Assembly (NCBI GenBank): GCA_017309115.1
Contig: JAFLEF010000001.1
Coordinates: 277,822-341,821, forward strand
Direction of reading: 5' to 3'
Length of the DNA stretch: 64,000 nt
From: Verrucomicrobiota bacterium
GTDB lineage: Bacteria > Verrucomicrobiota > Verrucomicrobiia > Limisphaerales > UBA9464
Of this stretch, positions 23,037-41,892 are shown in pieces (the first letter of the stretch is position 1; each line of letters starts with the position of its first letter). The notes under the pieces are model-generated. The model was not told where the DNA came from. It made no database searches and worked only from the letters and a program-made list of their open reading frames with translations. The position numbers and the translations under genes were made by a program.

Positions 23037-24836
23037 TTATTGGGATTTTCCCAAATTCACAAACGCCTCTGCGAACGCCTTGCCCATCTGCGCAAAGATC
23101 TTCGCACTGCCAAAATAGTGGTAACCACCGTTGGAAGCGCCTTTCAGGGCCTCCCTGTCTTTAGGGGGCAGCACTTCCTCCAATGCGAGGTCGAGCTGTT
23201 CCTGGTCCGCTTTGGTGATTCCCTCAATCCGCACATCCAACGCGGCATAGCGATCCGGAGTCTCGGGATCATATTGATCATTGGCATAGACGGCCAAGAC
23301 GTTCTTCCCCTTCTTCAAATGCTTGATCTGCTCCTCTTCGAGGATGATGGAGCTGTATTGCGGCTTATCCTGCCACCAGATGTAGGTGTGTATCTTTTTT
23401 CCGTTCAAGTACACATGAAATCCCTGTCTCGCCAGAACGGCGATCCGATACGATGCAAAGTCGAGATCCTCGACTTCAAACGTCGTCCGCATCAGCAGGA
23501 ATTCGGCCTCCCCCCATTTTGAGGGGAATGTGTTCAGGGTGATTCCGCTATGTTTCCAGGTGCCCTTTCCAATGGGGGACTTGCCTTCAGTCCACTTCTG
23601 GTCATCGAAGTCGGGCCTGTACCAATTCTCTATCCCCGCAGGCAGTGTGATGTCGCGGAATCGTCGGTCATCATACGTCTCCAGCTTGTCCTTCTTTTCG
23701 GTGGCATCCACCGCAACAAAGCGCCAGATCCGTTCCTCCGGCAGAGGCTTGCCCACGGGCTTCCAGTACCGATCCCACTTCCGTTCCCTGTCGAGCGTAC
23801 CATCCTTCTTCAATACGTGAGCCGTGCCGACGATCGCATTGTACTCGTCCTGCTTGGGTTCTGCTGCGGCAATGTCGTCGTCCCAAAAGGGAGCGGTTTC
23901 GACGGCAACCACATTGCCCTTGAACTCGGGCAGGTCGGCCGGCGCGGCCATGGCCTTGCGGAACACCTCATTTTCGCTTTTACCACCGACTCCGAGCACA
24001 CCGATCACGAAGGGCATCTTCGGGGCAGACAGATCCTTGCGAACATCGCGAATGAACTTGGCCAGCAGGTCTGAATAGACATCGTATTTTCCGGGTTTGT
24101 CAGGACCGGGATAAGTCGTCCCATCAACCAGATCATTGAATCCTTGAAGCCAGACAAAACCAGCGAGTTCATAGCCAGCCTTCTCGTCATATTTCGGACA
24201 GACTCGCTTGGGATCGGCCAGCACCTTCTTCACGTGGTCGATCATCATCCGGTAAAACACACCTGAGGCGGCATCCTTTTCTTCCTGCCATTTTTGCCGG
24301 TCCTCGAGTTTGGGAATTCCGTGGGCGCCACCGGGGTGCTTGTCCCACTCTTTCTGAATTTCCTTGGGCAGCTTGTAGGGTCCGGCACTGGGTGGACGAA
24401 ACTCGGTGTTGAGCGACCTGCCGCCCCAGGCGGACTTGATGATCAGAATGGGTTCCTTCAGCTGTTTCTCCATGTAGATCCCGAAGGTGAACTCAGGACC
24501 AATATTGCCACACATTTCGGTGGGACGCTCTCCCCGTGCCCCAAAGCCAGCGGTCAGTTTTCCCAACCCTTCGCCATTGGCGCTACCATCATAGGGTCCG
24601 GTCAAATAGGACATCCAGACGTTGTCACAGACCCGCGGGTTGCCGTCAGGGTTTCGCATTTCCCTGAGTAGGGGTGCCGTCAGCGGGTCCTTGCCGATAT
24701 AGTCAAACGTGCTGATTGCGGCGTGTCCCTCCATGTTGGACTGGCCAGCGAGAATGAACACCTTGAGCGGCTGAGCGAAGGATTCCGGAGCGAGGGCGAA
24801 CAGTAAGGCTGCGGTTAGGAGCAGAATTGGTTTCAT
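23037..24836 (-). CDS. exported sialate O-acetylesterase-like SGNH hydrolase
   Basis: A 599-residue exported carbohydrate esterase. The signal peptide is MKPILLLTAALLFALAPESFA. The nucleophile block VFILAGQSNMEG puts Ser33 in the SGNH position, with KSAWGGRSLNTEF (Gly block) and FVWLQGFNDLVDG (Asn block, WLQG.ND) following. A beta-sandwich of about 170 residues comes next (ENWYRPDFDDQKW, FHVYLNGKKIHTY, KGKNVLAVYAND). The final block GGYHYFGSAKIFAQMGKAF supplies the probable catalytic His, so the sandwich appears inserted before the last catalytic block. Family members remove acetyl groups from sugars, but the sugar here is unknown. It is the last gene of the minus-strand operon, 36 bases after its neighbour. 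Confidence 0.85.
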   Translation of the reverse strand: MKPILLLTAALLFALAPESFAQPLKVFILAGQSNMEGHAAISTFDYIGKDPLTAPLLREMRNPDGNPRVCDNVWMSYLTGPYDGSANGEGLGKLTAGFGARGERPTEMCGNIGPEFTFGIYMEKQLKEPILIIKSAWGGRSLNTEFRPPSAGPYKLPKEIQKEWDKHPGGAHGIPKLEDRQKWQEEKDAASGVFYRMMIDHVKKVLADPKRVCPKYDEKAGYELAGFVWLQGFNDLVDGTTYPGPDKPGKYDVYSDLLAKFIRDVRKDLSAPKMPFVIGVLGVGGKSENEVFRKAMAAPADLPEFKGNVVAVETAPFWDDDIAAAEPKQDEYNAIVGTAHVLKKDGTLDRERKWDRYWKPVGKPLPEERIWRFVAVDATEKKDKLETYDDRRFRDITLPAGIENWYRPDFDDQKWTEGKSPIGKGTWKHSGITLNTFPSKWGEAEFLLMRTTFEVEDLDFASYRIAVLARQGFHVYLNGKKIHTYIWWQDKPQYSSIILEEEQIKHLKKGKNVLAVYANDQYDPETPDRYAALDVRIEGITKADQEQLDLALEEVLPPKDREALKGASNGGYHYFGSAKIFAQMGKAFAEAFVNLGKSQ

Positions 24837-24872
24837 GAGGATTTGAAGGGGGTCTTCGATGATGACTTTGGC

Positions 24873-27275
24873 CTATCTCAGACGAATCAGTTCAGGGGAC
24901 TCCGTCGAGGCTTCTATCGCGCGGATTGTTTCGCGAACGCTCTTGGCCTTCTGCAGCATGAGCTCCTTGGGAAAGTCCTTTTCGTCCTTTTCAAAGTAGT
25001 TCGCGATCCGGGTCAGGTCGGGAACGACCGACTTGGCATTAGTCCCGTAGCTGAGCAGAATTTCCATCAGTTCCGGGGTTCGATGTTCGCTCGCCCAGGG
25101 ATTCTGATCGCGTGTGTAGTTCACGCAGGCGCGGATGCCTTCCTCGATCCGATGCTTGGCCAGCAAGCGGAGTCCCTCCACGCGAATCGAATCGGCGAAC
25201 ATTTCGCCGCTCGGAGCGGGTTCGACGATCGCCTGATAGATGGCCGGCAAGAGGGGTTTGATGTCTTCGGCCGAGAGATGGCGATAGACCGAACCGATGC
25301 TGCCGCGGGCGCGACCGTCCTGATTCTTGAGTCCAGCTCGCACGGCTTGGTAGAGCGCCTCGCGATCCACGCCCTCAAGCGACCGGCTCAGCATTCCGTC
25401 GTTATCGAACAGGGCGAAGGACAGATACCGCTGCTGCATGCCGCGTGGATCGCTCTGCGGATTCACCTGAGCCAGCAGTTCGAGCAGTTGCGGCACCGTC
25501 TTCATGGCGGGTGTGCCGATCGCGGCGAGCGCTTCGGCGGCCTTGATCCGCAGCCAGAGGTCTGGGTCCGCCAGTGCTCTCTGCAGCGGTTCAAGGGCGG
25601 GCGCACCCCGCCCGCGCAAGGCAATCAGGGCCTGGCAGGCGCCGTATCGGGAATTCAGGGCGCTCGACTCCAACAGGGTCACGAGGGGTGAAACGGAGAC
25701 ATCTTTGCGCCGGCCCAAGGCCATCGCAGCTCGCTCGCGAACCACGGGCGACCAACTGCCGAGACGCACCAACAGTTCCTCGGCGCTAAGCTTGTCGTAG
25801 GCGCTATAGCGGTCCTTGTTGTCCCACCCCCGACCATCTTGGATGAGGGCCTGGGCCGCGGCGGCGTCCAACTGCGGGATGACAGCCGGTCGCTTGCCCG
25901 TCAGATAGAGCCTCTTGAGTGGAGCTGCGTAAGCCAACAAGTAAGCACCAGTGGCGTCCCAACCTTCGTAACTATCGTTCTCCGGCTCGGGCGGTCCCTG
26001 ATGGGCGAACGTGCCGTCCCAGCGGCGGGCGAAGTCGAAGTACCACGCGCCAAATTCCTCCATCCAAACTCCCGTAGCCTGAGGGCCGGACTGGGCGATG
26101 CCAGGCATGGCCCAGAGGATGTTGAAGTAATTGCCGGTGTGTCCCGTGTCGCGCTCCGGTCCATGGGAGGCCACGCTCATGCGGGAAAAGAACTCGGCGC
26201 CATTGGGTTCACCCAGCAGGTTGAACAGAACGGCCGCCATTCCGCATTTGCCGTTGTCTTCGTGGTTCTCAATCCATGGGTGATGGTCGCCATAGGGAAT
26301 CGCCCCTTTGCCGATGTAGAAGCGTAGCAGACGGGCGCTCAGCTCGATGGCGCGGGCCACTTCCGGATCGTTCACACCCGCTTCACGCGCCAGCACCAAC
26401 CCAATGGTCAACGGCACGCCCGGCGAGTTCATCATCCCGTATCCGCCGAGACGACCGTCGGGCCTAGCGAATCCATGGCCCCACGAACCGACCGCGCTCT
26501 GACCCTTAGCGGCTTCCAGAGCGAGACGTCGCAGTCCTGGCATCACGGACTGGTCGCCAGTCGCCAGCGCATACTCGGCGACGAGCATCATGACGTAGCC
26601 GTAGTACCAGGTCTGCATCGAGTTCTCCGAGAAGCCGGCCGCCCACTGGGCTTCCTTCTTAATCAGCGGCAGGTAGGCAGGATCTCCGCTGGCCAGGAGG
26701 GCGAGCGCATTGAGCGAGCGCACGAGGGGATCGTCGTGACTCGGAGATCTGCCCACTTTCGCGGCCAACGCTTGGCACCCCTGTTCCAGGATTCGTTTGG
26801 ATTTCGAACACTCGTAAGGGGCGGTGGCGCCGTAACTGCCAAGCACCGGGAGTTTGACCGTGACTGGTTCTACCTGGCCTGCTCGCCAGCGGGTTAAAGT
26901 GAGTCTTCCTCCACCCGCTTCTGTTTCCGCGATGGTGACTGCCCGGCCCAACTCGGTGCGCGGGTCGTAGGAAAACGGCTTCCCGTCAACTCCCAGGAGG
27001 ACGTCACCAACTTGGAAACTGCCGTCGGCGGGAGAACCCTTCTCCACTTGAGTAACGAAAATCTGCCGCGCATCGGTGGTCACCATCTGATCGCAGAACA
27101 TCCATCCGCGCAGCCCCGTTGGGCCGAGGTTCCAGTCATGCTTGGCGCCCGCTGGAATGGACTCACCTTGGGTGAAGTCGGGGATCTTCAAAGGCTGGCT
27201 CTTGGCTGCGGCCGCGGTGGGATCTGGTGCACCGAGCAGAGCCACGAAGAAGAGAGTGAAGAGACGCATCGTCAT
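24873..27275 (-). CDS. exported DUF6288-like protein with PDZ and HEAT repeats
   Basis: An 800-residue exported protein. A signal peptide (MRLFTLFFVALLGAPDPTAAAA) is followed by a PDZ-like domain (about 75-150: IFVTQVEKGSPADGSFQVGD, then VLLGVDGKPF). The centre (about 170-500) is an alpha-helical barrel-like region with repeated ALATGDQ, GGYGMMNSPGVPLTIG and ARAIELSARLLRFYIG helices, resembling the DUF6288 family of PVC bacteria. HEAT repeats near 520-620 include SWSPVVRERAAMALGRR and DLWLRIKAAEALAAIGTPA. There is no catalytic motif that I can name, and the biochemical role of the family is unknown. It overlaps the methyltransferase gene upstream by four bases, so the two are co-translated. 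Confidence 0.78.
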   Translation of the reverse strand: MTMRLFTLFFVALLGAPDPTAAAAKSQPLKIPDFTQGESIPAGAKHDWNLGPTGLRGWMFCDQMVTTDARQIFVTQVEKGSPADGSFQVGDVLLGVDGKPFSYDPRTELGRAVTIAETEAGGGRLTLTRWRAGQVEPVTVKLPVLGSYGATAPYECSKSKRILEQGCQALAAKVGRSPSHDDPLVRSLNALALLASGDPAYLPLIKKEAQWAAGFSENSMQTWYYGYVMMLVAEYALATGDQSVMPGLRRLALEAAKGQSAVGSWGHGFARPDGRLGGYGMMNSPGVPLTIGLVLAREAGVNDPEVARAIELSARLLRFYIGKGAIPYGDHHPWIENHEDNGKCGMAAVLFNLLGEPNGAEFFSRMSVASHGPERDTGHTGNYFNILWAMPGIAQSGPQATGVWMEEFGAWYFDFARRWDGTFAHQGPPEPENDSYEGWDATGAYLLAYAAPLKRLYLTGKRPAVIPQLDAAAAQALIQDGRGWDNKDRYSAYDKLSAEELLVRLGSWSPVVRERAAMALGRRKDVSVSPLVTLLESSALNSRYGACQALIALRGRGAPALEPLQRALADPDLWLRIKAAEALAAIGTPAMKTVPQLLELLAQVNPQSDPRGMQQRYLSFALFDNDGMLSRSLEGVDREALYQAVRAGLKNQDGRARGSIGSVYRHLSAEDIKPLLPAIYQAIVEPAPSGEMFADSIRVEGLRLLAKHRIEEGIRACVNYTRDQNPWASEHRTPELMEILLSYGTNAKSVVPDLTRIANYFEKDEKDFPKELMLQKAKSVRETIRAIEASTESPELIRLR

Positions 27276-28171
27276 AAATCTGACCTCTTGAGTTGTCGGA
27301 ATTCTGTCTTCGCTTCGATGAGGCTTCTAAGAGCACCGAGTTTGCGAATATGCTCCGGCGTGGTGCCGCAACAGCCGCCCACGATCTGCACCGGCCACGT
27401 TCGGGCGTAGTGCAGGTAACTCTCCGGATCGACGGCGTCCGTGTTAATCCAGCCGTCCTTTTCGTCGGCATAGCCAATGTTGCCATAGGCCATGAGCGGA
27501 AAATCGGGGCCGCAGATCGACCGCAACTCGGCGAGTGGTTTGGCCAGGGTGTGGGCTGGGCCGCAGTTGATACCCAAGGCATTCACTCCCAGCGGCAGCA
27601 ATACTTCAGCGGCAACCGCCAGTGACTCGCCGGACAAGATTCGGCCTTCGCGGTCGCACACAAAACTGACCCACGTGGGCCGACCAGTGATCGTCGCCAA
27701 TTGGGCCGCAATGACGGCTTCCCGAATGGACGTCATCGTCTCGATCAACAGCAGATCAACGCCCGCTTCCACGAGATGTTGGATGCGCTCGGAATGCTCG
27801 GCGCGGCATTCGTCGTCGGGTGGAACCAGGTCGGGACGATAGCAATCCTCCAGCGGGGCCACTGAACCGGCCACTCGGGCAGGCTGGCCGAACTCAGCGA
27901 CCGCTTCTTGAGCGGTCGCCACCGCGCGCCGGGTCAATTCGCGCGCATCGTGCCCTTTACCAGCCAGCACCCGGCGATGAGTGCGAAAGGTGTTGGTAGT
28001 GATGATGTCCGCGCTTGCCTTCAGGTAATCCAGATGGATCTGGCGCAACGTTCCCAACCCGGTGTCATTGGTGAGCGCATTCGCCGACCACAACGGCAAG
28101 CCGGTGTCCACTCCACGCCGGTTCAATTCCGTGCCAGTCGCGCCATCCAGCAAGAGAAGTTTACCGTTCAT
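27272..28171 (-). CDS. homocysteine S-methyltransferase family protein
   Basis: A 299-residue cytoplasmic enzyme of the zinc- and homocysteine-dependent methyltransferase family. The opening LLLDGATGTELNRRG is diagnostic. Zinc ligands are the cysteine in GINCGP and the vicinal pair in VGGCCGTTPEHI, at the usual spacing. It also has DLLLIETMTSIREA and GKGHDARELT. Length agrees with the stand-alone MmuM/HMT-type enzymes, which take methyl groups from S-methylmethionine or betaine-like donors to make methionine; the donor cannot be read from sequence. It is unusual as a cytoplasmic enzyme inside an operon of mostly exported proteins. Both of its gene boundaries overlap the neighbours by four bases. 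Confidence 0.9.
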   Translation of the reverse strand: MNGKLLLLDGATGTELNRRGVDTGLPLWSANALTNDTGLGTLRQIHLDYLKASADIITTNTFRTHRRVLAGKGHDARELTRRAVATAQEAVAEFGQPARVAGSVAPLEDCYRPDLVPPDDECRAEHSERIQHLVEAGVDLLLIETMTSIREAVIAAQLATITGRPTWVSFVCDREGRILSGESLAVAAEVLLPLGVNALGINCGPAHTLAKPLAELRSICGPDFPLMAYGNIGYADEKDGWINTDAVDPESYLHYARTWPVQIVGGCCGTTPEHIRKLGALRSLIEAKTEFRQLKRSDL

Positions 28172-29031
28172 GGGTTTCCCCTTCCCGTGGGGGATTGGCT
28201 GGCCGGGGCGGCCTTCGCACCGGGCAGACGTTGCGGACGAAGTCGCAAGGTGACGTTAGAGCCCACGGCCGGCAGGTTCGCGGGGTTCACCTGCCACAGG
28301 AGTGCTTCCGAATCCTGACTATGAATCGCGGGCAGGCATAGCAACTCGTCCCCGAAGGTTGAGAGCGAGATCACATTTCCACTTTCGTCGCTCAGATAGC
28401 GGCGCGGTCCGGGTCCGTCGCCATCCAAAACGGATCCGGCGAAGAGAAAGGTGTGGGTCGGAAACTTGGCCGGTTTGTCCGCAGACTCAGAGTGACCGGA
28501 CCTCTTGTTGGAGGGTGCGATAAAATCGCTGATGGGGTACTCGACTAAGTTCCCCTCGTTGTCTTTGAGCACCAGAAAGACATCCACCGGACCGCCGCTG
28601 GGGGGAACGTCAAACCAGCGCTCCGTTTGATCCCCCAGTTGCTGGCGCGTGGCGGGGCTCCCCGGTTTGGCACCCAACAGCAGAAGCGCCGCGTGCAGGT
28701 GCATCGGCTTCGCTCCAATCGCGACAATCGACTCGTGCTCCTTGGTGCCCTTGGTGCAGGCCACCAACTCCAACGCACCTCGATGAAGGCAGACGGAACC
28801 TTCCACATCCACGCACCGCTCCTGAACGTTGATCGTCACCCCAGGGAACTTAAGTTTCTCCATAGCCGCTTGCAGGGCGGCGTTCGTGGTGCCCCCGGCT
28901 GCGCCCGGCCGATCGGACGACGGGGCCTCTGAGCGGGATTCGGCTGCGGCCAGGGACACGAAGAACAGCGTCAGCACCGCCCGCCACCGAACAGAACCCG
29001 CTGGTTTCTTGGTGCCTGCTAGAGCGGTCAT
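28168..29031 (-). CDS. exported YdjY-domain protein
   Basis: A 287-residue exported protein. I chose the ATG at 29031: it opens a signal peptide (KPAGSVRWRAVLTLFFVSLA) and has GAGAA upstream; earlier ATGs run into the neighbouring gene. The YdjY pattern covers about residues 60-150: VDVEGSVCLHRGALELVAC, GTKEHESIVAI, then MHLHAALLLLGAKPG. A second half (VDVFLVLKDNEGNLVEYPI, HTFLFAGSVLDGDG, ISLSTFGDELLCLP) is the extension common in planctomycete and verrucomicrobial relatives. The molecular role of YdjY domains is not known. It follows the cyclase-like gene by 38 bases and overlaps the methyltransferase gene by four. Confidence 0.82.
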   Translation of the reverse strand: MTALAGTKKPAGSVRWRAVLTLFFVSLAAAESRSEAPSSDRPGAAGGTTNAALQAAMEKLKFPGVTINVQERCVDVEGSVCLHRGALELVACTKGTKEHESIVAIGAKPMHLHAALLLLGAKPGSPATRQQLGDQTERWFDVPPSGGPVDVFLVLKDNEGNLVEYPISDFIAPSNKRSGHSESADKPAKFPTHTFLFAGSVLDGDGPGPRRYLSDESGNVISLSTFGDELLCLPAIHSQDSEALLWQVNPANLPAVGSNVTLRLRPQRLPGAKAAPASQSPTGRGNP

Positions 29032-29069
29032 TCTTTTCTCAAGCAACCTGCCCCGACGGTCGACGACCC

Positions 29070-30281
29070 TCACGGCATCCTCCATTCGACCAGCTCCAGT
29101 GCCATCACGGCATAGCTCGTGACGAGTACGGGATCCGCTTCCCACCATCGCGGTTCAGGATTCACCCAGGAACCGTCTGGTCGTTGAAGCTGGAGCAAGC
29201 GCCCAGCGACCGCATCCCGCCAAAGGACATCCGCGCCAGTGGCCTGCGGAAGACGATCCTCCCCGGCAGCGGTCAGTGCCTTGGTCAGCAAATAGAGGTA
29301 ATAGAAGTAACCCTGCTGCCCCATCCCGGGGTTTTCTTCCAGGGTGTAGTTGGAGCGAAGCCAGTTCTTAACCGCCACGACCCGCGGATCGTCCGGACCC
29401 AGCTTGGCGTAGATGAAGCTAAGCAGTCCGCCGTAGCTCATGCTGCCATAGCTCCGGAGAGCCACTCGGCCCGTCTGCGAGTTGGTGACGGCTCCTGCCA
29501 TGCTGTGGCCGGGGTAATAGAAGAAGCCGCCCCGATCCTTCGGGTCAGTCGACACCCGCTCGGAGGTGTTGGTGCCGGGCAAGTTTTGGCAGTTCTCCAG
29601 AAAGCGCACCGCCGCCTTCCAGTCCAAGTCGGCCACTGGCATGGCAGTCGAAGGGAGATCCTTCAGGATAACAGCCTCGGAAGCCCGCATCGCCTCGATG
29701 GCCACCAGGGTGTTGTTCATGTCGGAGTGGTCATACTTGCTGCCGTAGCCCACTCCACCGTCAAACGGCGTGTCATTCGTCCCTTTGACGCCCCGATCAA
29801 TCTGGGTGCTGGCGAGGAACTCGCGGGCCTTCAAGATCACCGGCAGGAAGTTCGTGTCCGCGGCCGAGGTCAGCGCCAGCAGCGACAGGGACGTGTTGTA
29901 GTTCGCCAGTCCGACTTTCTGGATGGAACCATCCGGTCTCACGCAGGAGAGGAGATAATCAAAGCCCCGATTCATCTCGGAGGTACGGCTCCGCTGAAAT
30001 CGTTGGGTGGGTTCCAAATTCATCGCCGTCAAGGCCAAGGCCGTGACCGCCGGTTGATCCGGGGTGGACCACCAACCGTTCGAATTCTGAGCCCTTTGAA
30101 GGAAGACAAGTCCACGCTCGATCGCCGCGCGAACCTCTTGCCGCGACGGCGCCTGAGCCGGCTGGGAGGAGGTGGCTCGCTGGGCATTTAAACTCAGGCA
30201 AAGAGCCCAGAACGCGCCGGCGGCTAGAACGGCTGTTGGTATGAGCTGATATCGCATTTTGGGAATCTCAGGGGGATTCAT
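29070..30281 (-). CDS. exported terpenoid-cyclase-like (prenyltransferase/squalene oxidase repeat) protein
   Basis: A 403-residue exported alpha/alpha-barrel protein. The N-terminal hydrophobic stretch ([19 protein letters not shown]) follows MRYQ and acts as signal peptide; the ATG eight codons earlier overlaps the upstream gene stop. Repeats with the QxxxGxW-type pattern are seen: [32 protein letters not shown], and [20 protein letters not shown]. The DxDD acid motif of squalene-hopene cyclases is not present, so real cyclase activity is doubtful. Exported proteins of this fold in PVC bacteria have no agreed function; a protein- or glycan-binding role is possible. Its start overlaps the stop of the enolase-superfamily gene by four bases. 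Confidence 0.82.
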
Positions 30282-31381
30282 TCGACGACGACCTCCCGCG
30301 GGCCAAGTACGTCGAGTTTCGGGCGAACACCGAGACCCGGCGCCCGGGGCGCGGCCATGCGGCTGTTCACCCGCTGGGGCGCCCCGTCAGCCGTGCTCAC
30401 GGTCACGTAACTGTTGAAGTCAGTCGTGCTGAAGAGGAGTTCCGTAGGCGTGCTGTGCGCCAGATGTGCGATGGCGGCCGTGGCAATATCGCCGCCCCAG
30501 GAATCTTCCAGTGTCATCCCAATTCCCATGCTCACACAGAGGTCACGGGCCTGCTTGATCTTCGTGAGCCCTCCCAGCTTGCTAATCTTCAGGTTCACCA
30601 CGTCCATCGCGAGATCGGCCTTTGCCCGGAGCAGAATGCCGAGATCGTCGATGTTTTCGTCGAGTACGAACGGATGCGGAATCTGACGACGCACGGCGAG
30701 GCATTCCTCGTAGGTACGGCAGGGTTGTTCGATGTAGACATCCACGTCTTGCACGGCCTTGGCAATACGAATGGCTTCGTGCTGAACCCATCCGGTGTTC
30801 GCATCAGCCACCAGTCGGTCCCCGGGCTGAAGCTCGGCGGCGACGGCCTTGATACGCGCAATGTCGACATCTGGATCACCCCCGACCTTGAGCTGGAACC
30901 GTCGATAACCTTCCGCGCGATAGCCCGCGACCTTGGCCGCCATATGTTCCGGTGACTCCTGCGAGATGGCGCGGTAGAGATGAACGTCCTCGCCGTAACG
31001 TCCACCCAGCAATTCACAGACGGGCAGGCCAGTCGCTTGGCCCAGGATGTCCCAGCAGGCGATATCGACACCGCTTTTCACATAGGGATGGCCGATCAAC
31101 GCGGCATCCATTGTGCGATTGAGCTTGCCGAGTTGACGCGGGTCTTCGCCGAGCAAGTGCGGCCCAAGTTCGCGCAATCCGGCGCGTACGCCCTTGGCAT
31201 AGGCCGGCAGATAGAACGGCCCGAGCGGACAGACCTCACCGTAGCCAATGAAACCGGAGTCGGTTTCTACGCCGACAATGGTACTATCGAAGACGGTTAC
31301 AGATTTGCCGCCGGACCATTTGTAAGTCACTTCGTGCAGCGGAAGGTCCACGCGATGGGCAAAGATGCGGGTGATTTTCAT
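30278..31381 (-). CDS. mandelate racemase/muconate lactonizing enzyme family protein
   Basis: A 367-residue cytoplasmic enolase-superfamily enzyme starting [15 protein letters not shown]; the longer open frame upstream lacks homology and overlaps the previous gene. Metal ligands are the acids in [14 protein letters not shown] and FVLDEN. A catalytic Lys precedes them in FQLKVGG, and the second lysine is in LKISKLGG, with the closing motif TLEDSWGGD. These enzymes abstract a proton alpha to a carboxylate, then eliminate water or racemise. The IEQPC and LEDSWGGD motifs recall the cis-3-hydroxyproline dehydratase and hydroxyproline-betaine branch, but that is a weak assignment. It is one of only two clear cytoplasmic enzymes of the operon, so it may process a product made outside. 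Confidence 0.88.
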
Positions 31382-31394
31382 GGATGAAGTCGGA

Positions 31395-33199: not shown

Positions 33200-33203
33200 G
33201 CCG

Positions 33204-34679
33204 TTATTTCGGGATTTCGTTCAGTGTGTAGTAAGCGCGGTCGTGCAACAGCAGTTCGCCGTCCCGGGACTTGAACTCAGGCAGGTGGAAGTCGTGAACG
33301 TGCCCCTGAACCAGGCCCTTCACCCGCAGGCGCACGCTGCTTCCGTCCGCCGCGACTTCGGCGGAGGTGATTTTGGGGTGCGTATGATCCACCTCAGGGC
33401 TGCCATAGTCCTCCTGGTAAATGTGCGTGTAGGTCTGGAGCGAATAGCTCTCCGGGCGGGCGGCGAGCGCGGCCTCCACGGGGCGGGTGAAGCGCAGCAC
33501 GAAGCCATCGGGCTGAGCCCGAATGTCGAGGATTTCGAACGGCGTCTTGCCGGTCCAGTCGAGACGCTGGAGCAGATTGTCCTTCATCCCGCGCACGGGC
33601 CAACCGCGGTTCGTGCCGCCCACGATCAACTTACCTTCGGGTGTGAAATGCACCGCCAGGATCCCGGTGCCCAACCCTTCGCGGAAGGGATAACACGCAC
33701 CCTGCCAAACGCCGTTGACCAACTCCGTCGTCACGCGCATCACGACGCACAACGAGTAATCACCGACGAAGATCTGCTGATCGAACGGACCGAACAACCC
33801 ACCCGCGCGGCACACTTCGAACGCGGAGATCGAGCGGCCCATCTTTTTGTAGGGGAACACCACGGCGTAGGGAACCAATTCCTTCACGCGCAGACGCTCC
33901 GTCTCCAAGCGCGACGGCGAATTCGGCATCACCGGGGTCGCGCCCAGGTTGGTCGCAAACGGATACCAGTTGAAGCTGATAGGGTGCCCCATGAAGCCAC
34001 CCGGCTTGAGGTGCTTGAGCGAACACGAGCCGTTCCACGGCCCCTGGCTCTCAACGTAGAACATCTCACCCTGCTCGTTGGGCCCCACGCCCAGCGGACT
34101 CCGGAGTCCACTGCACAACGGGATGGTCTTTCCGTCCGGCGTAATCTTGAGCGCCCAACCCCGAAACAATTCCTTCGAGTGGTAAGACTCGGACAGCCCC
34201 AGCGCGACGTAGAGATTTCCCGCCGCGTCAAACTTCGATCCGAGCGCAAACTCATGATAGTGACCGAAACCCCAGGCATCGCTGATCGTATCGTACCGGT
34301 CTGCGCGACCGTCGCCATTCGTGTCGGCGATCCTCGTGATCTCGGCCGCATGCGTCGCGTAGAACGCGCCGTCGCGCCAAGCCAGCCCGAGCACTTCGTC
34401 CAAACCGCTGGCGAATGTGCTCACCTTCGGGCTGGGGTTCTCCGCGCCCACACCGGTGAACAGCAGGATTTCCCCGCGCCGCGTCCCAACCGCGAGCCTT
34501 CCATCCGGCAGCGAAACGAAACTGCCGGACTCCAGATACACACCCTCCGGCATCGGAACATTCACCAGGCGGTAGTACGCGGCCTCCCGTTCCGCCGTGC
34601 CCCACGAATCACCAAACTCCTCGGCGGCCGTGACGAGGAACGGGAGCAGGCAAAGAAAGCTGAGAAGAAAACGACTCAT
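33204..34679 (-). CDS. exported sorbosone-dehydrogenase-like beta-propeller protein
   Basis: A 491-residue exported protein. The signal peptide is MSRFLLSFLCLLPFLVTAA. Propeller strands resemble the PVC-type glucose/sorbosone dehydrogenase-like family: SFVSLPDGRLAVGTRRGEIL, VLGLAWRDGAFYATHAAEIT, DTNGDGRADRYDTISDAWGF, LRSPLGVGPNEQGEMFYVES and IFVGDYSLCVVMRVT. Ca-binding-like DTNGDGRAD is typical. Whether it binds PQQ cannot be seen. A C-terminal beta-domain (PFEILDIRAQPDGFVLRFTR) follows the propeller. Position directly after the five-haem cytochrome gene, with a four-base overlap, suggests that electrons from any oxidation could pass to that cytochrome; this is inference. Confidence 0.82.
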   Translation of the reverse strand: MSRFLLSFLCLLPFLVTAAEEFGDSWGTAEREAAYYRLVNVPMPEGVYLESGSFVSLPDGRLAVGTRRGEILLFTGVGAENPSPKVSTFASGLDEVLGLAWRDGAFYATHAAEITRIADTNGDGRADRYDTISDAWGFGHYHEFALGSKFDAAGNLYVALGLSESYHSKELFRGWALKITPDGKTIPLCSGLRSPLGVGPNEQGEMFYVESQGPWNGSCSLKHLKPGGFMGHPISFNWYPFATNLGATPVMPNSPSRLETERLRVKELVPYAVVFPYKKMGRSISAFEVCRAGGLFGPFDQQIFVGDYSLCVVMRVTTELVNGVWQGACYPFREGLGTGILAVHFTPEGKLIVGGTNRGWPVRGMKDNLLQRLDWTGKTPFEILDIRAQPDGFVLRFTRPVEAALAARPESYSLQTYTHIYQEDYGSPEVDHTHPKITSAEVAADGSSVRLRVKGLVQGHVHDFHLPEFKSRDGELLLHDRAYYTLNEIPK

Positions 34680-36895
34680 GGCTGGGCGATGAAGTGGTAC
34701 TCCAGTTTCAACTCACCGCCCGTCGCCGGCAGCAGGAGTTCCTTGGCGTCTCCAACGCCACGCACCGTGCCCGGCCCGGAGAGGCGCACCACCAAACTCC
34801 TGCCGATGGCGAACTCGTTCACTCCGCGGGGCTCGATGGAAGTGTTGGCAGCGACACGGAAGTACAGGCCAGCCGGCGGGGCCTGAGGAAACCTCAGGGT
34901 GCGTTCAAGTCGGGGACGGCCCGCGTTGGGCCGTTCGACAAAGAAGTCCTCCACCGCAAAACCGTCCACAAGGTAGCGAAACGTTGGCCGTTGCCGATCG
35001 TCGAGGATGTAGCCCTGGAACGAAACCGTCCGTGGTCGGGGGGTTGGATCCGGCACGGGCCAGACTTGGTCCGGCTGCGCGAGGACGGCGAAGGCCGGCC
35101 CCGAAGGAAACTTGACGGCGTCTCGGCCAAGGATGCGCGCCTCCCCGGCACCTTGGCCGCGCCAGATACCGGAAGCCTCGATGAACCCACCGGTCCAAAG
35201 AGAAGCGAGCCGCATCTGCTCGGCATCAAACGAGAGGTTGATGCCACCCGGATAGCCGACTCCGATGCCCCGCTTGCCAATGCCCGGGAACGCGCGGCGA
35301 ATGATGACGGCCTCGTCCTTCACCGTGATGACGAGCGGCTCCAGCACCAACCCGGCGGGTTCGCTCGCATCAGGCCCTTGCTCGAGATATTGCCACAGCG
35401 CGTCCCGCTGCTGACCGGAGTCACCGCCGAGCACGTTGGTCAGCGGAGATTTTCCATCAGGCCAGAACCCGGGCATGATCGTGAGCGGCGAGAACCGCTC
35501 CGGTTGCTCAAGGTAACGATGAAACCAGTTCTCTTCCAACCGCTCCGTCATCGTCATCAAGTCCAAGGCCTGGATGGCCCCGGCGCTCTTCTCCCGGAAG
35601 GTGTGGCAGGCAATGCAGTTAAATCCTTTGCTGCCCACGAGATCACGGCCGACCTGGCGCGGCCGGCCGCTCTCGCCAACGCGGGTGAACACCGCTGGCG
35701 GCAGCGTATCGACAGCCTTCAAGCGGGCCACAAGTGGACCGGCGTTCGCCGAGCCAAACTTCGGCATCCGCGTGTTCAAATACGGTCGAGCGGAGGCACC
35801 GTTCGCGATGACTTCGTGCAGCCACCGCGCCTTGAGCTTGGCCCCCACGCCGGTGAGCGTTGGCGGGAGGCGGCCCTGGTCACCCAGATTCTCGTCCTTG
35901 CCGGTGAAATACTCGTGGCGATCAGCCGGGACTCCGCCGAGTCCATCCCGTTGATGACACGCAACGCAATTCAACTGAGTGAGCGTCAACTGCACCTCCT
36001 CCGCGGGCGTCCACAGCCTCGCGTCCTCGGACAACACCGCCCGCAACGCCGCACGTTGATTCTCCGCGAGCGGATAATGCGGCCAAGCGCCGCGCTGGTC
36101 CGACAGACATCCCTCACCCCCGCGCAGCTTGCTGAAGGCCGTGAGCACGGGGGACCCGAGTGGGGCCTCCGCGCGGTGGCAGGCCTGGCACCGATACTCG
36201 GCAAACAGCGCCTTGCCCCGCGCGGCGAGCGAAGGATCAGGTGAGAAGGCCGGTGGTGGAGTCTTCTGTTCGCGCAGCAGATAGCTCGCGAGGTCCGTCG
36301 CCTCTGTTCGTTCGAGCTGACCATCCGGCATCCGCCCGCTGGGCCGAATGTCGAGCGGTCGTTCCAGGAACGCCGCCAAGCTCGCAACGGTGTATTTTTC
36401 CGCCAAGGGACCCAGCGGCACCGAGCCGGACAACGACTTCTCCGGCGAATGACACGCCACGCACCCGACCGAGTGATACAACTTCCGGCCGCGCTCCACC
36501 GCCTCCGGTTGGGGCAGCTCCGAGGGCTTGGGTCGACCCAACGTGGCGAGGTAGTGCGCCAGCGCGTTGGCCACGTCCTCACGTTGCGCTTCCGGCAAGT
36601 GCGCCAGCACATCCGGCATCGTTGTCCCCGGCTTCACGCCGGAGGGCGACGCCAGGAACCGCCGCAGGTGTGCTCCGTTGACCCGTGCTCCGACCTCGGA
36701 CAGGTCCGGCCCTGGTTTTGAGAGAAACGCCTTCTGTTCGCTAACGTGACAGGCGGTGCAACCCAACTCGCTCACGAGCACCGCCCCCGCGAACGGTTCC
36801 CGGCCGACGCGCTCCCACCCGGCGACGAACGGCGCTTGGGCGTGAACCAACCCGATCAGGATCGTTGCAAAAAATGCCCGCAGAACACCCTTCAT
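34676..36895 (-). CDS. exported pentahaem cytochrome c protein
   Basis: A 739-residue exported protein with five CxxCH haem sites: GCTACH, GCVACH, CQACH, NCVACH and NCIACH, spread over the first 450 residues. The signal peptide is short (LRAFFATILIGLVHAQA). Met ligands may lie in GTTMPDV, SGRMPDG, NTRMPKF and IMPGFWP. The last 250 residues are a haem-free beta-rich domain (RTVSFQGYILDDRQRPTFRY, FRVAANTSIEPRGVNEFA) like those on PVC-type periplasmic cytochromes. It would carry electrons in the periplasm. Both gene ends overlap neighbours by four bases: the peptidase gene upstream and the sorbosone-dehydrogenase-like gene downstream. Confidence 0.9.
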   Translation of the reverse strand: MKGVLRAFFATILIGLVHAQAPFVAGWERVGREPFAGAVLVSELGCTACHVSEQKAFLSKPGPDLSEVGARVNGAHLRRFLASPSGVKPGTTMPDVLAHLPEAQREDVANALAHYLATLGRPKPSELPQPEAVERGRKLYHSVGCVACHSPEKSLSGSVPLGPLAEKYTVASLAAFLERPLDIRPSGRMPDGQLERTEATDLASYLLREQKTPPPAFSPDPSLAARGKALFAEYRCQACHRAEAPLGSPVLTAFSKLRGGEGCLSDQRGAWPHYPLAENQRAALRAVLSEDARLWTPAEEVQLTLTQLNCVACHQRDGLGGVPADRHEYFTGKDENLGDQGRLPPTLTGVGAKLKARWLHEVIANGASARPYLNTRMPKFGSANAGPLVARLKAVDTLPPAVFTRVGESGRPRQVGRDLVGSKGFNCIACHTFREKSAGAIQALDLMTMTERLEENWFHRYLEQPERFSPLTIMPGFWPDGKSPLTNVLGGDSGQQRDALWQYLEQGPDASEPAGLVLEPLVITVKDEAVIIRRAFPGIGKRGIGVGYPGGINLSFDAEQMRLASLWTGGFIEASGIWRGQGAGEARILGRDAVKFPSGPAFAVLAQPDQVWPVPDPTPRPRTVSFQGYILDDRQRPTFRYLVDGFAVEDFFVERPNAGRPRLERTLRFPQAPPAGLYFRVAANTSIEPRGVNEFAIGRSLVVRLSGPGTVRGVGDAKELLLPATGGELKLEYHFIAQP

Positions 36896-39201
36896 CGTTC
36901 AGCCCTTCCGTGGTCGGGGTCCTTCCCGCTCGAGCCGGTGGGCAAATGCTCGTGCAGGTAATGGGTCAGCGTGCGGTAGAAGTGCACGACCGTGTTGGTC
37001 CCTTCCGAGATGCTGTGCGAGCGGTTCGGATACGGCATAACGGTGAACGGTTTGTCGCGCGCGATGAGTTCGTTCATCAGCATCTCCGTGCCCTGATAGT
37101 GGCCGTTGTCGTCGCCGGTGCCATGGACGACGAGCAGGTTACCCCGCAGATGCTGCGCATGCGTCAGCGGCGAGCCATCGCGATAGCCTGCGGCATTGTC
37201 GCCGGGCAAGCCCATGTAGCGCTCCTGGTAAATGGTGTCGTAAAGAAGCTGATTCGCATTCGGAGCCACGGCGATTGCCGTGGAATACAGGTCGGGATAA
37301 CGAAAGATCGCGTTCAAGCTCATGCTGCCGCCACCGCTCCAGCCCCAGACCCCCACGCGCCCGGCATCGGCTTCCGGCCAGAGTCCGAGCATCGCGCGCA
37401 CGGCGGCAGCCTGGTCGTGCGTCGCGAGAATGCCAATCTGCCGATACACGCTGCGGCGCCATTCGCGTCCGCGCGGCGCGGGCGTGCCCCGATTATCCAC
37501 GCTCGCCACAAAATAGCCCTGCTGCGCGAGCATCCAATGCCACAGCCCAGTCTCCCCGTCCCACGAATCCCGCACGGTCTGTCCCGCCGGCTCGCCATAG
37601 ACGTAGATCAACAACGGATGTTTCCCCACGCCCTCCCGTGCCGGAGGACGAATTCTCCAGGCATCCAGCAAAACGTTTCCTCCGATGTCGATCTTCAGGA
37701 ATTCACTCACGGGCTGCTTCAGCGCCGAAAGCTTTTCTCGAAGCTCGCGATTGTCGGTCAGCACCCGGACCACTTTGTGATCGGGCAGGCTGACGAGTTC
37801 CACCGTCGTCGGCGTGGTGAAGGTGGACCAAGTATGCACCGCCCAACGGCAGTCCGGCGACACATCGTAGGTGTGCCAGCCGGGTTGTCCGTCGGGGGTG
37901 AGGCGCTCCGCGGGGCCGCCGGTCAGCCGTGTCCGGTAGAGGTATCGCTGGGTGAAGTTATCCGGGGAAGCGGCGTAGTAGAGCCAGCCGCCGGCGTTGT
38001 CCTGCGCCTCGATCGCGATCACGTCGAAGTCGCCGTCTGTGATCCGGGTGAATGACTTATCCTCCGCATCGGCGCGGTAGGCGTGCCGCCAGCCATCACG
38101 TTCGCTTAGCCAGACGAACCCTCCTTCCGGATCCGCCCAGCGGAACGGGTTCAGGTTGTCCACCCAAGCGGCGTCCGTCTCGCGCAGCATGACGCGCGTT
38201 GCCCCGTTCTTGGGATTGGCCAACATCACGAGATTGGTGTTCTGAAGGCGATTGAACTGCTGAAGGAGAAGGTGCGCACCGTTCGGCGTCCATTCAAGGT
38301 GAGGCAGATAATGCTCCCGCGGGTCGCCCGGAATCTGGAGCCAGCGCACGCGGCCTCCGGTGGCCGCCACCACACCCAAGCGAGTGGCCGAGTTGGTCTC
38401 GCCTACCTTGGGATACGGGAACGAAGTGATCTGGGGATAGCTGTCCGCCGTGTTGTTGAGCAGATGGAACTGGCGCACACCCGTGAGATCGAATTGCCAG
38501 AAGGCGAGGAACCGTCCGTCCGGGCTCCAACGAAAGCCATTGCGAATCTCGAGCTCCTCCTCGTTCACCCAGTCCGAGGTGCCGTTGATGCGCGTGGGGG
38601 AACCGTCGGTGGTCAGGGCCGTGACGCGCATCCGCGTCAATTCCTGAACGTAAAGGTTGTTCTCGCGCACGTAGGCCACCCGCGATCCGTCGGGCGAAAA
38701 CTGGGCGAACATCAGCGTAGACGGCGCGCTGTCTCCCCCGAGCCGCCGGAGTTTGCGCGTGGCCAGGTCCAGTACCCAGTAATTACCGCGCGTGTTCCGG
38801 CGCCAGACCCGCCGGCTGTCCGTGAAGAGCAACAGCTTGGATTCGTCCGCCGAAAATTCGAACGCCTCGACTTCCAGCGGCGCGGTCGACCCTTCCGGAA
38901 TGAACGCACTTGGCGGCACGAGCAGTTTCTTCCCGCCCGTCGGATCGATCCGAACGAGATCACGGCCCGGACTGCCCGCTTCCGGAGTCTCCAACGTGAA
39001 GTAGTCCGAGGCGCGCCGACTCCAACGCAAGGGCGCGGGACGTTCCTCCCGGAACTCCTTGGACCCAAAGATACGGTCCACGGTGAGCAAGGAGGGATCA
39101 GTGGCCCGCGGGGGAATACTGTGGGCGATTCCCGTTGGTTCAGAGGCTCCCGCTTCGAGTACCAGGCAGGCGAACCAGGCGAGCAGACCGAGGAGTTTCA
39201 T
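36892..39201 (-). CDS. exported S9B dipeptidyl peptidase IV-type peptidase
   Basis: A 769-residue exported serine peptidase. The signal peptide is MKLLGLLAWFACLVLEAG. The N-terminal propeller (about 40-490) contains DWVNEEELEI at 210-219; the paired Glu residues match the DPP-IV motif that holds the free amino end of the substrate. The hydrolase domain has GWSGGG with Ser622, the acid in HGTGDDN (697-698) and His729 in NRSHSIS, so the triad is complete. It should release dipeptides, often X-Pro, from peptides outside the cytoplasm. Length is normal for the family. Gene ends overlap both neighbours by four bases. Its place among cytochromes and propeller proteins is unexplained; peptide products could feed the same catabolic unit. 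Confidence 0.93.
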   Translation of the reverse strand: MKLLGLLAWFACLVLEAGASEPTGIAHSIPPRATDPSLLTVDRIFGSKEFREERPAPLRWSRRASDYFTLETPEAGSPGRDLVRIDPTGGKKLLVPPSAFIPEGSTAPLEVEAFEFSADESKLLLFTDSRRVWRRNTRGNYWVLDLATRKLRRLGGDSAPSTLMFAQFSPDGSRVAYVRENNLYVQELTRMRVTALTTDGSPTRINGTSDWVNEEELEIRNGFRWSPDGRFLAFWQFDLTGVRQFHLLNNTADSYPQITSFPYPKVGETNSATRLGVVAATGGRVRWLQIPGDPREHYLPHLEWTPNGAHLLLQQFNRLQNTNLVMLANPKNGATRVMLRETDAAWVDNLNPFRWADPEGGFVWLSERDGWRHAYRADAEDKSFTRITDGDFDVIAIEAQDNAGGWLYYAASPDNFTQRYLYRTRLTGGPAERLTPDGQPGWHTYDVSPDCRWAVHTWSTFTTPTTVELVSLPDHKVVRVLTDNRELREKLSALKQPVSEFLKIDIGGNVLLDAWRIRPPAREGVGKHPLLIYVYGEPAGQTVRDSWDGETGLWHWMLAQQGYFVASVDNRGTPAPRGREWRRSVYRQIGILATHDQAAAVRAMLGLWPEADAGRVGVWGWSGGGSMSLNAIFRYPDLYSTAIAVAPNANQLLYDTIYQERYMGLPGDNAAGYRDGSPLTHAQHLRGNLLVVHGTGDDNGHYQGTEMLMNELIARDKPFTVMPYPNRSHSISEGTNTVVHFYRTLTHYLHEHLPTGSSGKDPDHGRAER

Positions 39202-41765
39202 TGGAAAACGCTGTGCTGCGCGTTCCCGCCGGAGAGCAGATACGCCATTAAATCCATCAACTCCTCGGGGTTCATCCCACCAATCATCCCGGTGGGCATG
39301 GCGGAAATCTGGGAGTAACTGATGCTTTCGACTTCCGCGGCTGAAACCTTCGCAATCTGGTTGAGGTCGAAGGGATTCGAAGCGACCGCGACTTCCTGGT
39401 CATTGCGCAGAACGAGGCGTCCGCGGAGTTCTTCGCCGTCTTTGAGCTTCACCATGCTCACCATGTACTGCTCGGAAATGGAGGCGCTCGGCTCGCAAAT
39501 GGCAACCAGGATGTCGCGAAGGGAGTACCGACTACCCACGGAGCCGAGGTCGGGTCCGGAATATCCGCCTTCGCCACCGATGCGATGACAGGCGATGCAC
39601 AGGCCGGCCGAGAACATCTTTTTGCCGCTGTCGAAATCGCGCCCGCGCAGCTCGCCGCCGAACAGATTCATCGCGCTCTCGACCGTCCACGCCACGCGCG
39701 GGCCCTTGGGCTGGGGCAATTTGCTGAGGTCTACGGCCGGAAAGTCGGCGAGCAGGCCGGTCAGTTTCTCCACGTCGGCTGTTTCAAGCTGCGCGATGGC
39801 ATCCTGACGAATGGCGCGGATGTATCCCGCGAAACTCCGGCCGCCATCCTTGGCCAATGCCTCGTTCAGCCAGCCGAAAAAGTACTTCCGGTCTTCCAGC
39901 GCCCAGCCACTACGAACGCGACGCAAGCAGTCTGCGAAGTGAATGTTCCGGGTATTGGGCGTGTTCGCCATCATCTTCAAAATGGCCGCACCATACTCGT
40001 GCCGGGCGAGCATCGTCCGGTCGTAGTCCACCGTTTCGGCCTGCTGGGACTTCATGAGCGCGATGGTTTTCCGCGCGATCGACGGCGCATCGAGGAAGGA
40101 GAGTACCCGGCATAACTCGGCATTCACGGCGACATCGCTACCGGGGAAATGCACGTCGAGCTGGGCAATGATGGCTGCCGCTTGCTTCGTGGAGGGCACA
40201 CCCAGGCGCACGAAACACAGCGCGTAGGCGCGCAGCAGCGCGAGTTGATCTTCGCGTTCGAACTTCCCAAACGGAAGTTCGCCCAGCTTCTCGAGCAGAC
40301 GGGCCGAGAGGGACTTGTCCCCGTGGCGCACCAAGGCGATGGCCGCGTAAATCACAGCGCGCGGATGGGTCTCCGCAAAAACTTTCTCCTGCCACAAGGG
40401 GAGGTCTTGATTCTCGATCGCAATGCGCGCGGCGTAGCGGATGTGTCGGTCGGCGTGGGCGAGAAACGGCCACGCCGTCTCCACCGCCTCCACCCCGACA
40501 CCGGGAGTGTGCCGCTTCTCCAGCGAGTGCCGCAGTGCGCGGAGATCCCTGTTGGCCACCAGCGGACGCGCTGAGCCGCTGGTCGTTCCGCCCGTGTAGC
40601 GCACGCGATACAGCCGCGACTCCGTCAGGCGCCCGCCGGTGAGGAAGTACATCGCGCCGTCCGGGCCAAAGCGCATCGCCGCGATATTCAGCGGGCTGCC
40701 ATGGAGGAACTCCGCCTTCGTCCCAGTGTAACTGGAACCACTCTCCTGCATCGTCACGGTGAAGATGGTGCCGAACGTCCAGTCGCACACGAAGAGATCG
40801 TTCTGAAACTCCGCCGGAAAATTCGAGTGATGGCCGAAGCTGATGGCCGTCGGCGAACCGGGCCCCATGTCGAGCACCGAACCCAGGCTGTCCGCGAAGT
40901 AATCGCGCCACACGCCCGTGTTCGCCCGCCAGCCGAATTCCGCGCCACTCGTAACGTGATTGATGCGCGTGGGCCGATACCAGGGTGAGCCGATATCGAA
41001 CTCCATGTCCGAGTCATACGTGAACAACTCACCCTCACGATTGAGTGCCAAGTCCACCGAATTGCGAAAGCCTGACGCGATCAACCGCCACTCCTTGCCG
41101 TCGGGCGAGATGCGGCAAATCCAACCGCCCGGTGGTTCCAGCCCCACCGAGTGACCGCTCGGGTCGGGAATGATCGGCAGCAACGAATCCTCCTGCCAAA
41201 CCCGCGGCTGCGCGGACACCGAACCCTCCGGTACGTGCGTGTAATTTCCCGCCACCAGATAAAGCCCCGTGCCGTCCGCCGTCGGGATGATGGAATGCGC
41301 CGAGTGTTCGTAGCCCACGTTGAGTTTTTTCAGCAGCGTAAACTCGTCATACTGATCGTCTCCGTCCGTATCGCGGATGCGATAGAAGCCGCGCATGTTC
41401 GCCAGATAGAGACTATCGAACGCGTGAACCAGCCCGAACGCGCCGCCCACCTTGCGGCTGCCCCACTCGATCGGCTCGTAGGGAAATCCCGACAGGTTCT
41501 CCACCTTAAGCCCCGCGCCAGCCGTTGGCAGCGTCACCCGGTAAATGCCCGTCTCATCTTGGTCCGAAACGAGGAGCCGACCCTTCGGATCGAATGCCAT
41601 CGCAATCCACGACCCCTGGGCCTTCGGAACAACGTAGAGCAACTCCGCATCGAAGCCCGCGCGCAACGTGATGCCCGTATCGGCATCAAGCACCAACGCG
41701 GGCGCAACCGCGCCGGCTATGCGGAAGGCCAAGAACGCGCAGAGAATGGAGAGGATGCTCCTCAC
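39198..41765 (-). CDS. PVC-type haem-binding protein: dehydrogenase-like propeller with C-terminal cytochrome c domain
   Basis: An 855-residue exported protein starting at a GTG. The signal peptide is SILSILCAFLAFRIAGAVA. A sorbosone-dehydrogenase-like propeller fills about 30-410 (WIAMAFDPKGRLLVSDQDET, FYRIRDTDGDDQYDEFTLL, FRNSVDLALNREGELFTYDS). A helical middle region (about 415-690) with HEAT-like units follows. The last 130 residues have one haem site, GLCIACHRIGGEGGYSGPDL, then SLRDILVAICEPSASISEQY and GELRGR-type strands, the hallmark of the PVC haem-binding family. It probably oxidises a sugar-like substrate and passes electrons to its haem. It is the first gene of the operon, next to the divergent PAS-AraC regulator, so the gap 41766-41892 should hold its promoter, although no clear boxes are visible. 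Confidence 0.9.
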   Translation of the reverse strand: MRSILSILCAFLAFRIAGAVAPALVLDADTGITLRAGFDAELLYVVPKAQGSWIAMAFDPKGRLLVSDQDETGIYRVTLPTAGAGLKVENLSGFPYEPIEWGSRKVGGAFGLVHAFDSLYLANMRGFYRIRDTDGDDQYDEFTLLKKLNVGYEHSAHSIIPTADGTGLYLVAGNYTHVPEGSVSAQPRVWQEDSLLPIIPDPSGHSVGLEPPGGWICRISPDGKEWRLIASGFRNSVDLALNREGELFTYDSDMEFDIGSPWYRPTRINHVTSGAEFGWRANTGVWRDYFADSLGSVLDMGPGSPTAISFGHHSNFPAEFQNDLFVCDWTFGTIFTVTMQESGSSYTGTKAEFLHGSPLNIAAMRFGPDGAMYFLTGGRLTESRLYRVRYTGGTTSGSARPLVANRDLRALRHSLEKRHTPGVGVEAVETAWPFLAHADRHIRYAARIAIENQDLPLWQEKVFAETHPRAVIYAAIALVRHGDKSLSARLLEKLGELPFGKFEREDQLALLRAYALCFVRLGVPSTKQAAAIIAQLDVHFPGSDVAVNAELCRVLSFLDAPSIARKTIALMKSQQAETVDYDRTMLARHEYGAAILKMMANTPNTRNIHFADCLRRVRSGWALEDRKYFFGWLNEALAKDGGRSFAGYIRAIRQDAIAQLETADVEKLTGLLADFPAVDLSKLPQPKGPRVAWTVESAMNLFGGELRGRDFDSGKKMFSAGLCIACHRIGGEGGYSGPDLGSVGSRYSLRDILVAICEPSASISEQYMVSMVKLKDGEELRGRLVLRNDQEVAVASNPFDLNQIAKVSAAEVESISYSQISAMPTGMIGGMNPEELMDLMAYLLSGGNAQHSVFQ

Positions 41766-41892
41766 AGTTCGGTGTTGGGAGGTCTTCGAGGAAGGAAGTT
41801 CACTTGGCAGAGGTGCAGGACGAGAGCATTGTTTTCAGGTAGAAGTTACCTTTGGACTCATCATCCGTCTTGGAGTTGAATGTCATCCAGCC

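Follow-up and report, generated by a model that had tools for sequence, protein, structure and literature searches.

The described systems closest to the locus considered here are the lhp type of hydroxyproline catabolism, the Pro-Pro endopeptidases PPEP-1, -2 and -3, the breakdown of algal hydroxyproline-rich glycoproteins (HRGP) proposed for Latescibacteria, and the PVC-type haem-binding and propeller dehydrogenase families. The locus itself is a run of twelve genes, numbered g01 to g12 in the direction of transcription, on the minus strand (41765 to 23037) of a 64,000-nucleotide stretch, hereafter the window, of a Verrucomicrobiota bacterium (GTDB lineage Verrucomicrobiia, Limisphaerales, UBA9464; GenBank assembly GCA_017309115.1, contig JAFLEF010000001.1, positions 277,822 to 341,821). 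It is a real, recurrent and regulated locus, of which we found no description in the open-access literature searched, and it most likely represents hydroxyproline utilisation of a new type that reaches outside the cytoplasm. More specifically, we consider it reasonably probable that the locus serves the substrate-induced utilisation of proline- and hydroxyproline-rich (glyco)proteins under one divergent PAS-AraC regulator, feeding 3-hydroxylated proline into catabolism.

With lhp-type catabolism the locus shares the dehydratase family, here HypD, which in a few relatives is joined by DapA-like, epimerase-family and D-amino-acid dehydrogenase genes. The hydroxyproline genes of P. aeruginosa are activated by the AraC-family protein LhpR (PMC6608401), and a regulator of this family is found in both systems, homology to LhpR being compared at the level of the AraC-domain family only. 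By contrast, the run in the window contains no epimerase, no oxidase or D-hydroxyproline (D-Hyp) dehydrogenase and no 1-pyrroline-4-hydroxy-2-carboxylate (Pyr4H2C) deaminase, and has instead exported peptidases, an esterase, a ThuA protein, propellers and cytochromes. The Latescibacteria study (PMC4454575) resembles our case in the proposed substrate class and in its mention of a sialate O-acetylesterase; there, however, the HRGP steps are assigned to glycoside hydrolases, whereas the window locus has none by Pfam and appears to target peptide and hydroxyproline. The products of g01, g03 and g04 are members of the PVC-type haem-binding and propeller families or similar to them, and are tied here to ThuA (also by gene fusion) and to HypD; the open-access papers found on these families do not treat such a set, as far as their titles and the opening lines of their abstracts tell.

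HypD and the exported peptidases

The product of g07 (30278..31381) exceeds the cut-off of 500 bits of the curated HypD equivalog model NF043002, with 599.7 bits (599.8 in the genome search). Its closest solved structure is 4mgg (499 bits), with which residues K165, D193, E218, D241/E242 and K265 match in the alignment, and these are invariant in 87/87 aligned sequences; we take them to fill the metal and lysine roles of the enzyme. The same genome carries a second full-length HypD gene (L069, G000:C90:5868-6971) with no partners beside it.

A DPP-IV type peptidase of the S9B group is encoded by g02 (36892..39201), which has the DPPIV_N (PF00930, 3e-89) and Peptidase_S9 (PF00326, 8e-40) domains, the E-E motif and the Ser-Asp-His regions. 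Its DWVNEEE, GWSGGG, DDN and HS segments line up with the DPP-IV structure 5olj and presumably fill the corresponding catalytic roles.

The exported zincin g05 (32420..33199) has a PPEP-type fold with HExxH, a zinc Glu and an oxyanion Tyr seven residues before that Glu, as compared with the residues of PPEP-3 (PMC12828418), and lethal factor fits the fold about equally well. When PDB sequences were searched with a profile of alignment A1, no homology to PPEP-1, -2 or -3 emerged up to an E-value of 1; unlike in these enzymes, the HExxH and Tyr of g05 are further apart, by about 17 residues, and no tandem Glu stands ahead of the presumed zinc Glu. In five other loci (L143, L109, L098, L112 and L089) the zincin domain lies within longer proteins of 587 to 1511 aa, in L143 after an N-terminus that looks sulfatase-like by eye. 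The prediction that follows is of an exported enzyme with the Pro-Pro-endopeptidase fold in these bacteria.

Recurrence of the gene set

The family of the window's organism was sampled with 51 genomes, of which 37 contain a HypD gene over the cut-off, and orthologues of the DPP-IV and the zincin occur about once per genome. HypD and DPP-IV lie within 10 kb of each other on one contig in 17/26 genomes (those whose HypD exceeds the cut-off and in which DPP-IV gave a match of at least about 50% identity), and HypD and the zincin in 17/31, as against a crude chance of about 0.005 per genome. Fourteen of the 17 DPP-IV cases come from one genus, so that these genomes are not independent. A mere gathering by chance of gene families abundant in these bacteria could appeal to the g04 search, which gave 1-7 matches per genome in the 51 genomes, and to SASA esterases, of which some genomes have several; we hold it to be extremely improbable, given the near single-copy state of DPP-IV and zincin, their adjacency to HypD far above the crude estimate, and the block-swapped conservation and regulator orthology described below.

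For a wider comparison we assembled 92 distinct HypD loci, made up of the family loci and the best 80 of 488 HypD relatives from a wider scan. In the same co-directional run as HypD we found the zincin in 27 loci, DPP-IV in 18, a propeller in 17, a cytochrome in 16, ThuA in 12, SASA in 11, DUF6288 in 5, a prolyl oligopeptidase in 3 and a g01-like gene in 1, and g08, g09 and g10 in 0/92; 43 of the loci have no listed partner and 15 are shorter than 8 kb. In L062 (on a Pfam basis) and L067, both of the window's genus, a prolyl oligopeptidase follows HypD where others have DPP-IV. Locus L123, from Verrucomicrobium sp. BvORR106, combines HypD with a cytochrome, a propeller, a prolyl-oligopeptidase-like gene, SASA and DUF6288. 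On the HypD tree the S9 trait changes 9 times, zincin 14, cytochrome/propeller 12, SASA 11 and DUF6288 6 times, which indicates that the association does not stem from one inheritance and that the grouping was repeatedly gained or lost. Among ten uncorrected Fisher tests between partners, zincin with SASA gave p 0.001, cytochrome/propeller with SASA 0.012, SASA with DUF6288 0.028 and S9 with zincin 0.034, while all six remaining pairs had p > 0.1. In six loci (L112, L117, L131, L135, L136 and L144) ThuA and a propeller of the g04 type are fused in one protein. In L101 HypD reads as two open reading frames (ORFs), and in L086 a shortened DapA-like ORF of 84 residues (L086:5377-5631) stands behind HypD; both may reflect decay or assembly errors.

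The first-pass annotation had described a set of exported hydrolases, haem and propeller proteins and two cytoplasmic enzymes, and had named a lack of co-conservation in other genomes as a refutation; the set withstood this test and is co-conserved. Genome G013, of another genus in the same family, keeps 11 of the 12 genes with two blocks swapped, g08-g12 standing before g02-g07; g01 is the single operon gene that was not found there. Contig C106 of G013 carries, in order, g08 (83% identity), g09 (73%), g10 (87%), g11 (85%), g12 (64%), a sulfatase-like gene whose NCBIfam sulfatase matches lie below cut-off, g02 (81%) and g03, and contig C390 continues with g03, g04, g05, g06 and g07, the ends of the two contigs having 141 identical bases in common. 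At the head of this run stands a divergent copy of the regulator (90% identity). No other observation argues as strongly as this block-swapped copy for the whole run being a single functional set. In G012, which belongs to the genus of G013, SASA joins g02-g07 in a single run, and no g08-g11 turned up in the 20 kb examined; in G050, of the window's genus, SASA, DPP-IV, cytochrome, propeller, ThuA and a DUF6288 remnant stand together, HypD lying on another contig.

These data also bear on whether the run might be two unrelated tandem units, a hydroxyproline-peptide operon (g02-g07) and a separate envelope or methyl-metabolism unit (g08-g12). The absence of g08-g10 from the run in all 92 HypD loci and the preservation in G013 of the order of g08-g12 speak for such a division. 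Both blocks, however, lie in one run of G013, in opposite order and under the same regulator; DUF6288, with 0-2 copies per genome in 15 genomes, joins the HypD run in five loci; and in L158 a regulator of 84% identity is divergent from a SASA-DUF6288 pair. Two unrelated units thus seem to us quite unlikely.

The PAS-AraC regulator and its upstream element

The regulator gene (41893..42657, plus strand, with a GTG start inferred by us) diverges from the operon and encodes a PAS_4 (PF08448) and an HTH_18 (PF12833) domain. It was no part of the set recognised in the first-pass annotation; it nevertheless belongs to the operon system, as all full-length copies of at least 74% identity in the family (G000, G012, G013, G043 and G042) adjoin the operon, a partial copy in G050 lying at the end of a small contig. 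Among the 92 HypD loci it is clearly present in 13 (as two ORFs in L123), 11 of these copies being divergent and no more than about 1 kb away from HypD.

Regulator paralogues of 51-60% identity were examined in 18 loci. They lie beside an S9 peptidase gene in seven (L180, L186, L188, L190, L191 and L192 by tblastn, L185 by ORF) and beside DapA-like and epimerase-family genes in three (L173, L174 and L175); in L176 and L177 an epimerase-family gene is found within about 8 kb and an Xaa-Pro-aminopeptidase-like gene is near, and in L169, L182, L183, L184, L187 and L189 no such gene is beside the paralogue. The paralogues adjoining S9 genes suggest a wider proline-peptide regulon. As further observations, the S9 peptidases of the six tblastn loci measure 835-981 aa and are 25-27% identical to g02, their regulators being of 51-57% identity, and in L173-L175 the paralogue is divergent from the DapA-like and epimerase-family genes, behind which a protein of some 450 aa is encoded, ThuA-like by eye.

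Upstream of the regulator, the hexamer GTCTTG (41867..41872, plus strand) stands 29 bases ahead of AAAnnnCGCCCA at the regulator start. HypD-type and S9-peptidase-type loci have in common a GTCTTG placed 29 or 30 bases ahead of AAAnnn[C/A/G]GC[A/C]CA at this start. Of the 22 regulators that neighbour HypD or S9 genes, 18 have the hexamer, as against a mean of 0.8 and a maximum of 5 in mononucleotide shuffles, and the composite is present in 14/35 upstream regions (0 in 300 shuffles), significances that the shuffles overstate because the upstream sequences are related; neither hexamer nor composite is found in L173-L175. The element is a possible promoter or operator.

The probable glycan part and the proposed course of degradation

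Four other exported proteins of the set probably treat a glycan part of the substrate. They are the SASA carbohydrate esterase g12 (23037..24836; PF03629, 1.8e-17), which has an extra C-terminal part; the multihaem cytochrome c g03 (34676..36895; PF00034, PF13442 and the DUF6797 family PF20601), with five CxxCH motifs counted by eye; the beta-propeller dehydrogenase-like protein g04 (33204..34679; PF23500, 1.4e-8); and g06 (31395..32423), which has no Pfam match and yet a ThuA / class I GATase-like fold. In the scheme that we propose, the SASA esterase, together with the sulfatase-like enzyme in G013, would strip acyl and sulfate groups from the glycan in the periplasm or at the surface, and ThuA, the propellers and the multihaem cytochrome would oxidise or open the sugar part and pass electrons to the respiratory chain. 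The Pro-Pro-endopeptidase-like zincin might then cleave proline-rich stretches, and the DPP-IV, or the prolyl oligopeptidase of some relatives, could trim X-Pro and X-Hyp dipeptides. Uptake and hydrolysis of the peptides would fall to genes outside the locus; HypD would then dehydrate a 3-hydroxylated proline to a pyrroline-2-carboxylate, which would enter central metabolism, and the methyltransferase g10 may accept a methyl group from the same material. The family identities, the two folds, the recurrence and the regulator linkage are established computationally; the preference of g02 and g05 for proline, sugar oxidation by g03, g04 and g06 and the origin of the g07 substrate from peptides are what we infer from them.

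The order of importance could also be the reverse, the locus chiefly oxidising and deacylating a glycan, with the peptidases and HypD serving only to remove the peptide remnant of a glycoprotein or of a compound similar to peptidoglycan. Of the ten exported proteins, eight are indeed not peptidases, SASA shares the HypD run in the 11 loci mentioned and associates with the zincin, and the G013 copy includes its sulfatase-like gene. This reading is nonetheless unlikely in our judgement: zincin and DPP-IV are the most recurrent partners of HypD, none of the twelve genes matches a glycoside hydrolase or polysaccharide lyase family of Pfam, and in 10/18 loci the regulator paralogues stand beside S9 peptidase or DapA/epimerase-family genes. 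Within the operon, likewise, no SusC/SusD or glycoside hydrolase Pfam match was found that would make it a polysaccharide utilisation locus of the SusC/D type. The first-pass suggestion of one acetylated, peptide-bearing sugar compound as the substrate is thus kept in part: a glycan part is likely, from SASA and the sulfatase-like gene of G013, while a sugar compound as core substrate is not supported, the amino acid having been missed.

Our preferred reading, the utilisation of proline- and hydroxyproline-rich proteins, gives a recurrent regulated gene set of Verrucomicrobiota and some relatives a testable substrate class, namely wall proteins rich in these residues, and offers a setting for families without known function (DUF6288, the g04 propeller, the secreted ThuA and g08). 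In its most economical form, hydroxyproline-type compounds would induce the locus and HypD would be its last step.

Possible origin and fate of the hydroxylated proline

Genes of the 4-hydroxyproline type accompany HypD in a few relatives. A DapA-like gene directly follows HypD (<100 bases) in L090, L091, L122 and L146 and stands three genes on in L109. Proline-racemase-family genes come after HypD in L090, L091 and L109 and 8 kb on in L143; with the two closest 4-Hyp epimerase models, those of L109 score 370/412 bits and those of L143 424/407 bits, against cut-offs of 442/450. Below model cut-offs there are also a FAD D-amino-acid-dehydrogenase-like gene in L090 and L109, and Xaa-Pro-aminopeptidase-like genes, which in L109 lie 9 kb upstream and in L143 6.5 kb downstream. 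Across the family genomes, a DapA-like gene is present in 42/51 and an epimerase-family gene in 48/51 (2 over cut-off), and a dehydrogenase-like gene in 6/6 genomes tested. The window's genome has its candidates away from the locus, the epimerase on C57, the dehydrogenase on C110 and the DapA-like gene on C30, the last not near HypD. For PF02423, which we take to be the family of one usual type of pyrroline-2-carboxylate reductase, no member over cut-off was found in the 6/6 genomes searched, with weak partial sub-threshold matches in 3/6.

The amino acid 3,4-dihydroxyproline was first described from diatom walls, in a report of 1969, and we know of no earlier pathway for it. The diatom isomer is 2,3-cis-3,4-trans. 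We put forward, as a doubtful proposal, that the locus degrades diatom cell-wall protein and that HypD acts on this amino acid, which has been reported from diatom walls and the silaffin tpSil1H (PMC4557024, PMC5501833). Its dehydration would give 4-hydroxy-pyrroline-2-carboxylate, which a DapA-like deaminase could take directly, and such a 4-hydroxylated product would agree with the DapA-like genes adjoining HypD and with the lack of a PF02423 reductase over cut-off. On the other side, ProC or other reductases could perform the reductase step. Another cis-3-Hyp dehydratase, the aconitase X LhpI, is reported to be about 300 times slower on the 2,3-cis-3,4-cis isomer than on cis-3-Hyp, yielding a 4-hydroxy-pyrroline-2-carboxylate (PMC5144071). 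The proposal, if true, would name a fate for an amino acid long known from diatom walls.

The same paper notes that telomycin contains cis-3-Hyp and argues for antibiotics over collagen as the origin of free hydroxyprolines (PMC5144071). The 3-hydroxyproline that HypD serves to scavenge might then come from peptide antibiotics of bacteria, or from the collagen of animals, and not from algal wall proteins. For a rare peptide, however, twelve genes that include esterase and oxidation components would be a large outfit, and some named relatives are metagenome-assembled genomes with lake names in their titles (Baikal, Lac Pavin), so that we judge this source decidedly unlikely.

Layout of the run and neighbouring genes

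The ORF coordinates bear out the run of twelve ORFs described in the first-pass annotation. Seven of the eleven junctions are 4-base overlaps (g1/2, 2/3, 3/4, 5/6, 7/8, 9/10 and 10/11) and the other four have gaps of 4 to 38 bases, namely 4 (g4/5), 13 (g6/7), 38 (g8/9) and 36 (g11/12). For g07 and g09 we picked starts (31381 and 29031, respectively) that lie within longer ORFs, and with the longest g09 ORF (29148) the g8/9 junction becomes a 79-base overlap in place of the gap. Export of ten of the twelve products, also claimed at first, agrees, as judged by hydropathy, with an N-terminal hydrophobic core in 10/12, where the 9-residue Kyte-Doolittle mean reaches 2.2-3.0 in the first 40 residues; g07 (1.6) and g10 (1.3) have no such core.

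The first gene, g01 (39198..41765), encodes a PVC-type haem-binding CxxCH protein with a weak propeller N-terminus (TIGR02603, 91 bits, over cut-off; TIGR02604, 79 bits, below). In the second block, g08 (29070..30281) encodes an exported squalene-cyclase-like protein with weak TIGR01787/PF13243 matches, g09 (28168..29031) an exported YdjY-domain protein (NF040466, 150 bits against a cut-off of 50), g10 (27272..28171) a member of the homocysteine S-methyltransferase family without signal peptide (PF02574, 216 bits; under NCBIfam equivalog cut-offs) and g11 (24873..27275) an exported protein with PDZ, DUF6288 and HEAT parts (PF19805, 526 bits).

Just downstream of the operon, on the same strand (17858-22724), lie genes for an extracytoplasmic function (ECF) sigma factor and for a large WD40-repeat Ser/Thr kinase, for which the 19 loci compared gave a single distant kinase match (25% identity, L160). 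On the other side, a TPR protein with a C-terminal sulfotransferase domain (42654-44231) overlaps the end of the regulator gene by 4 bases.
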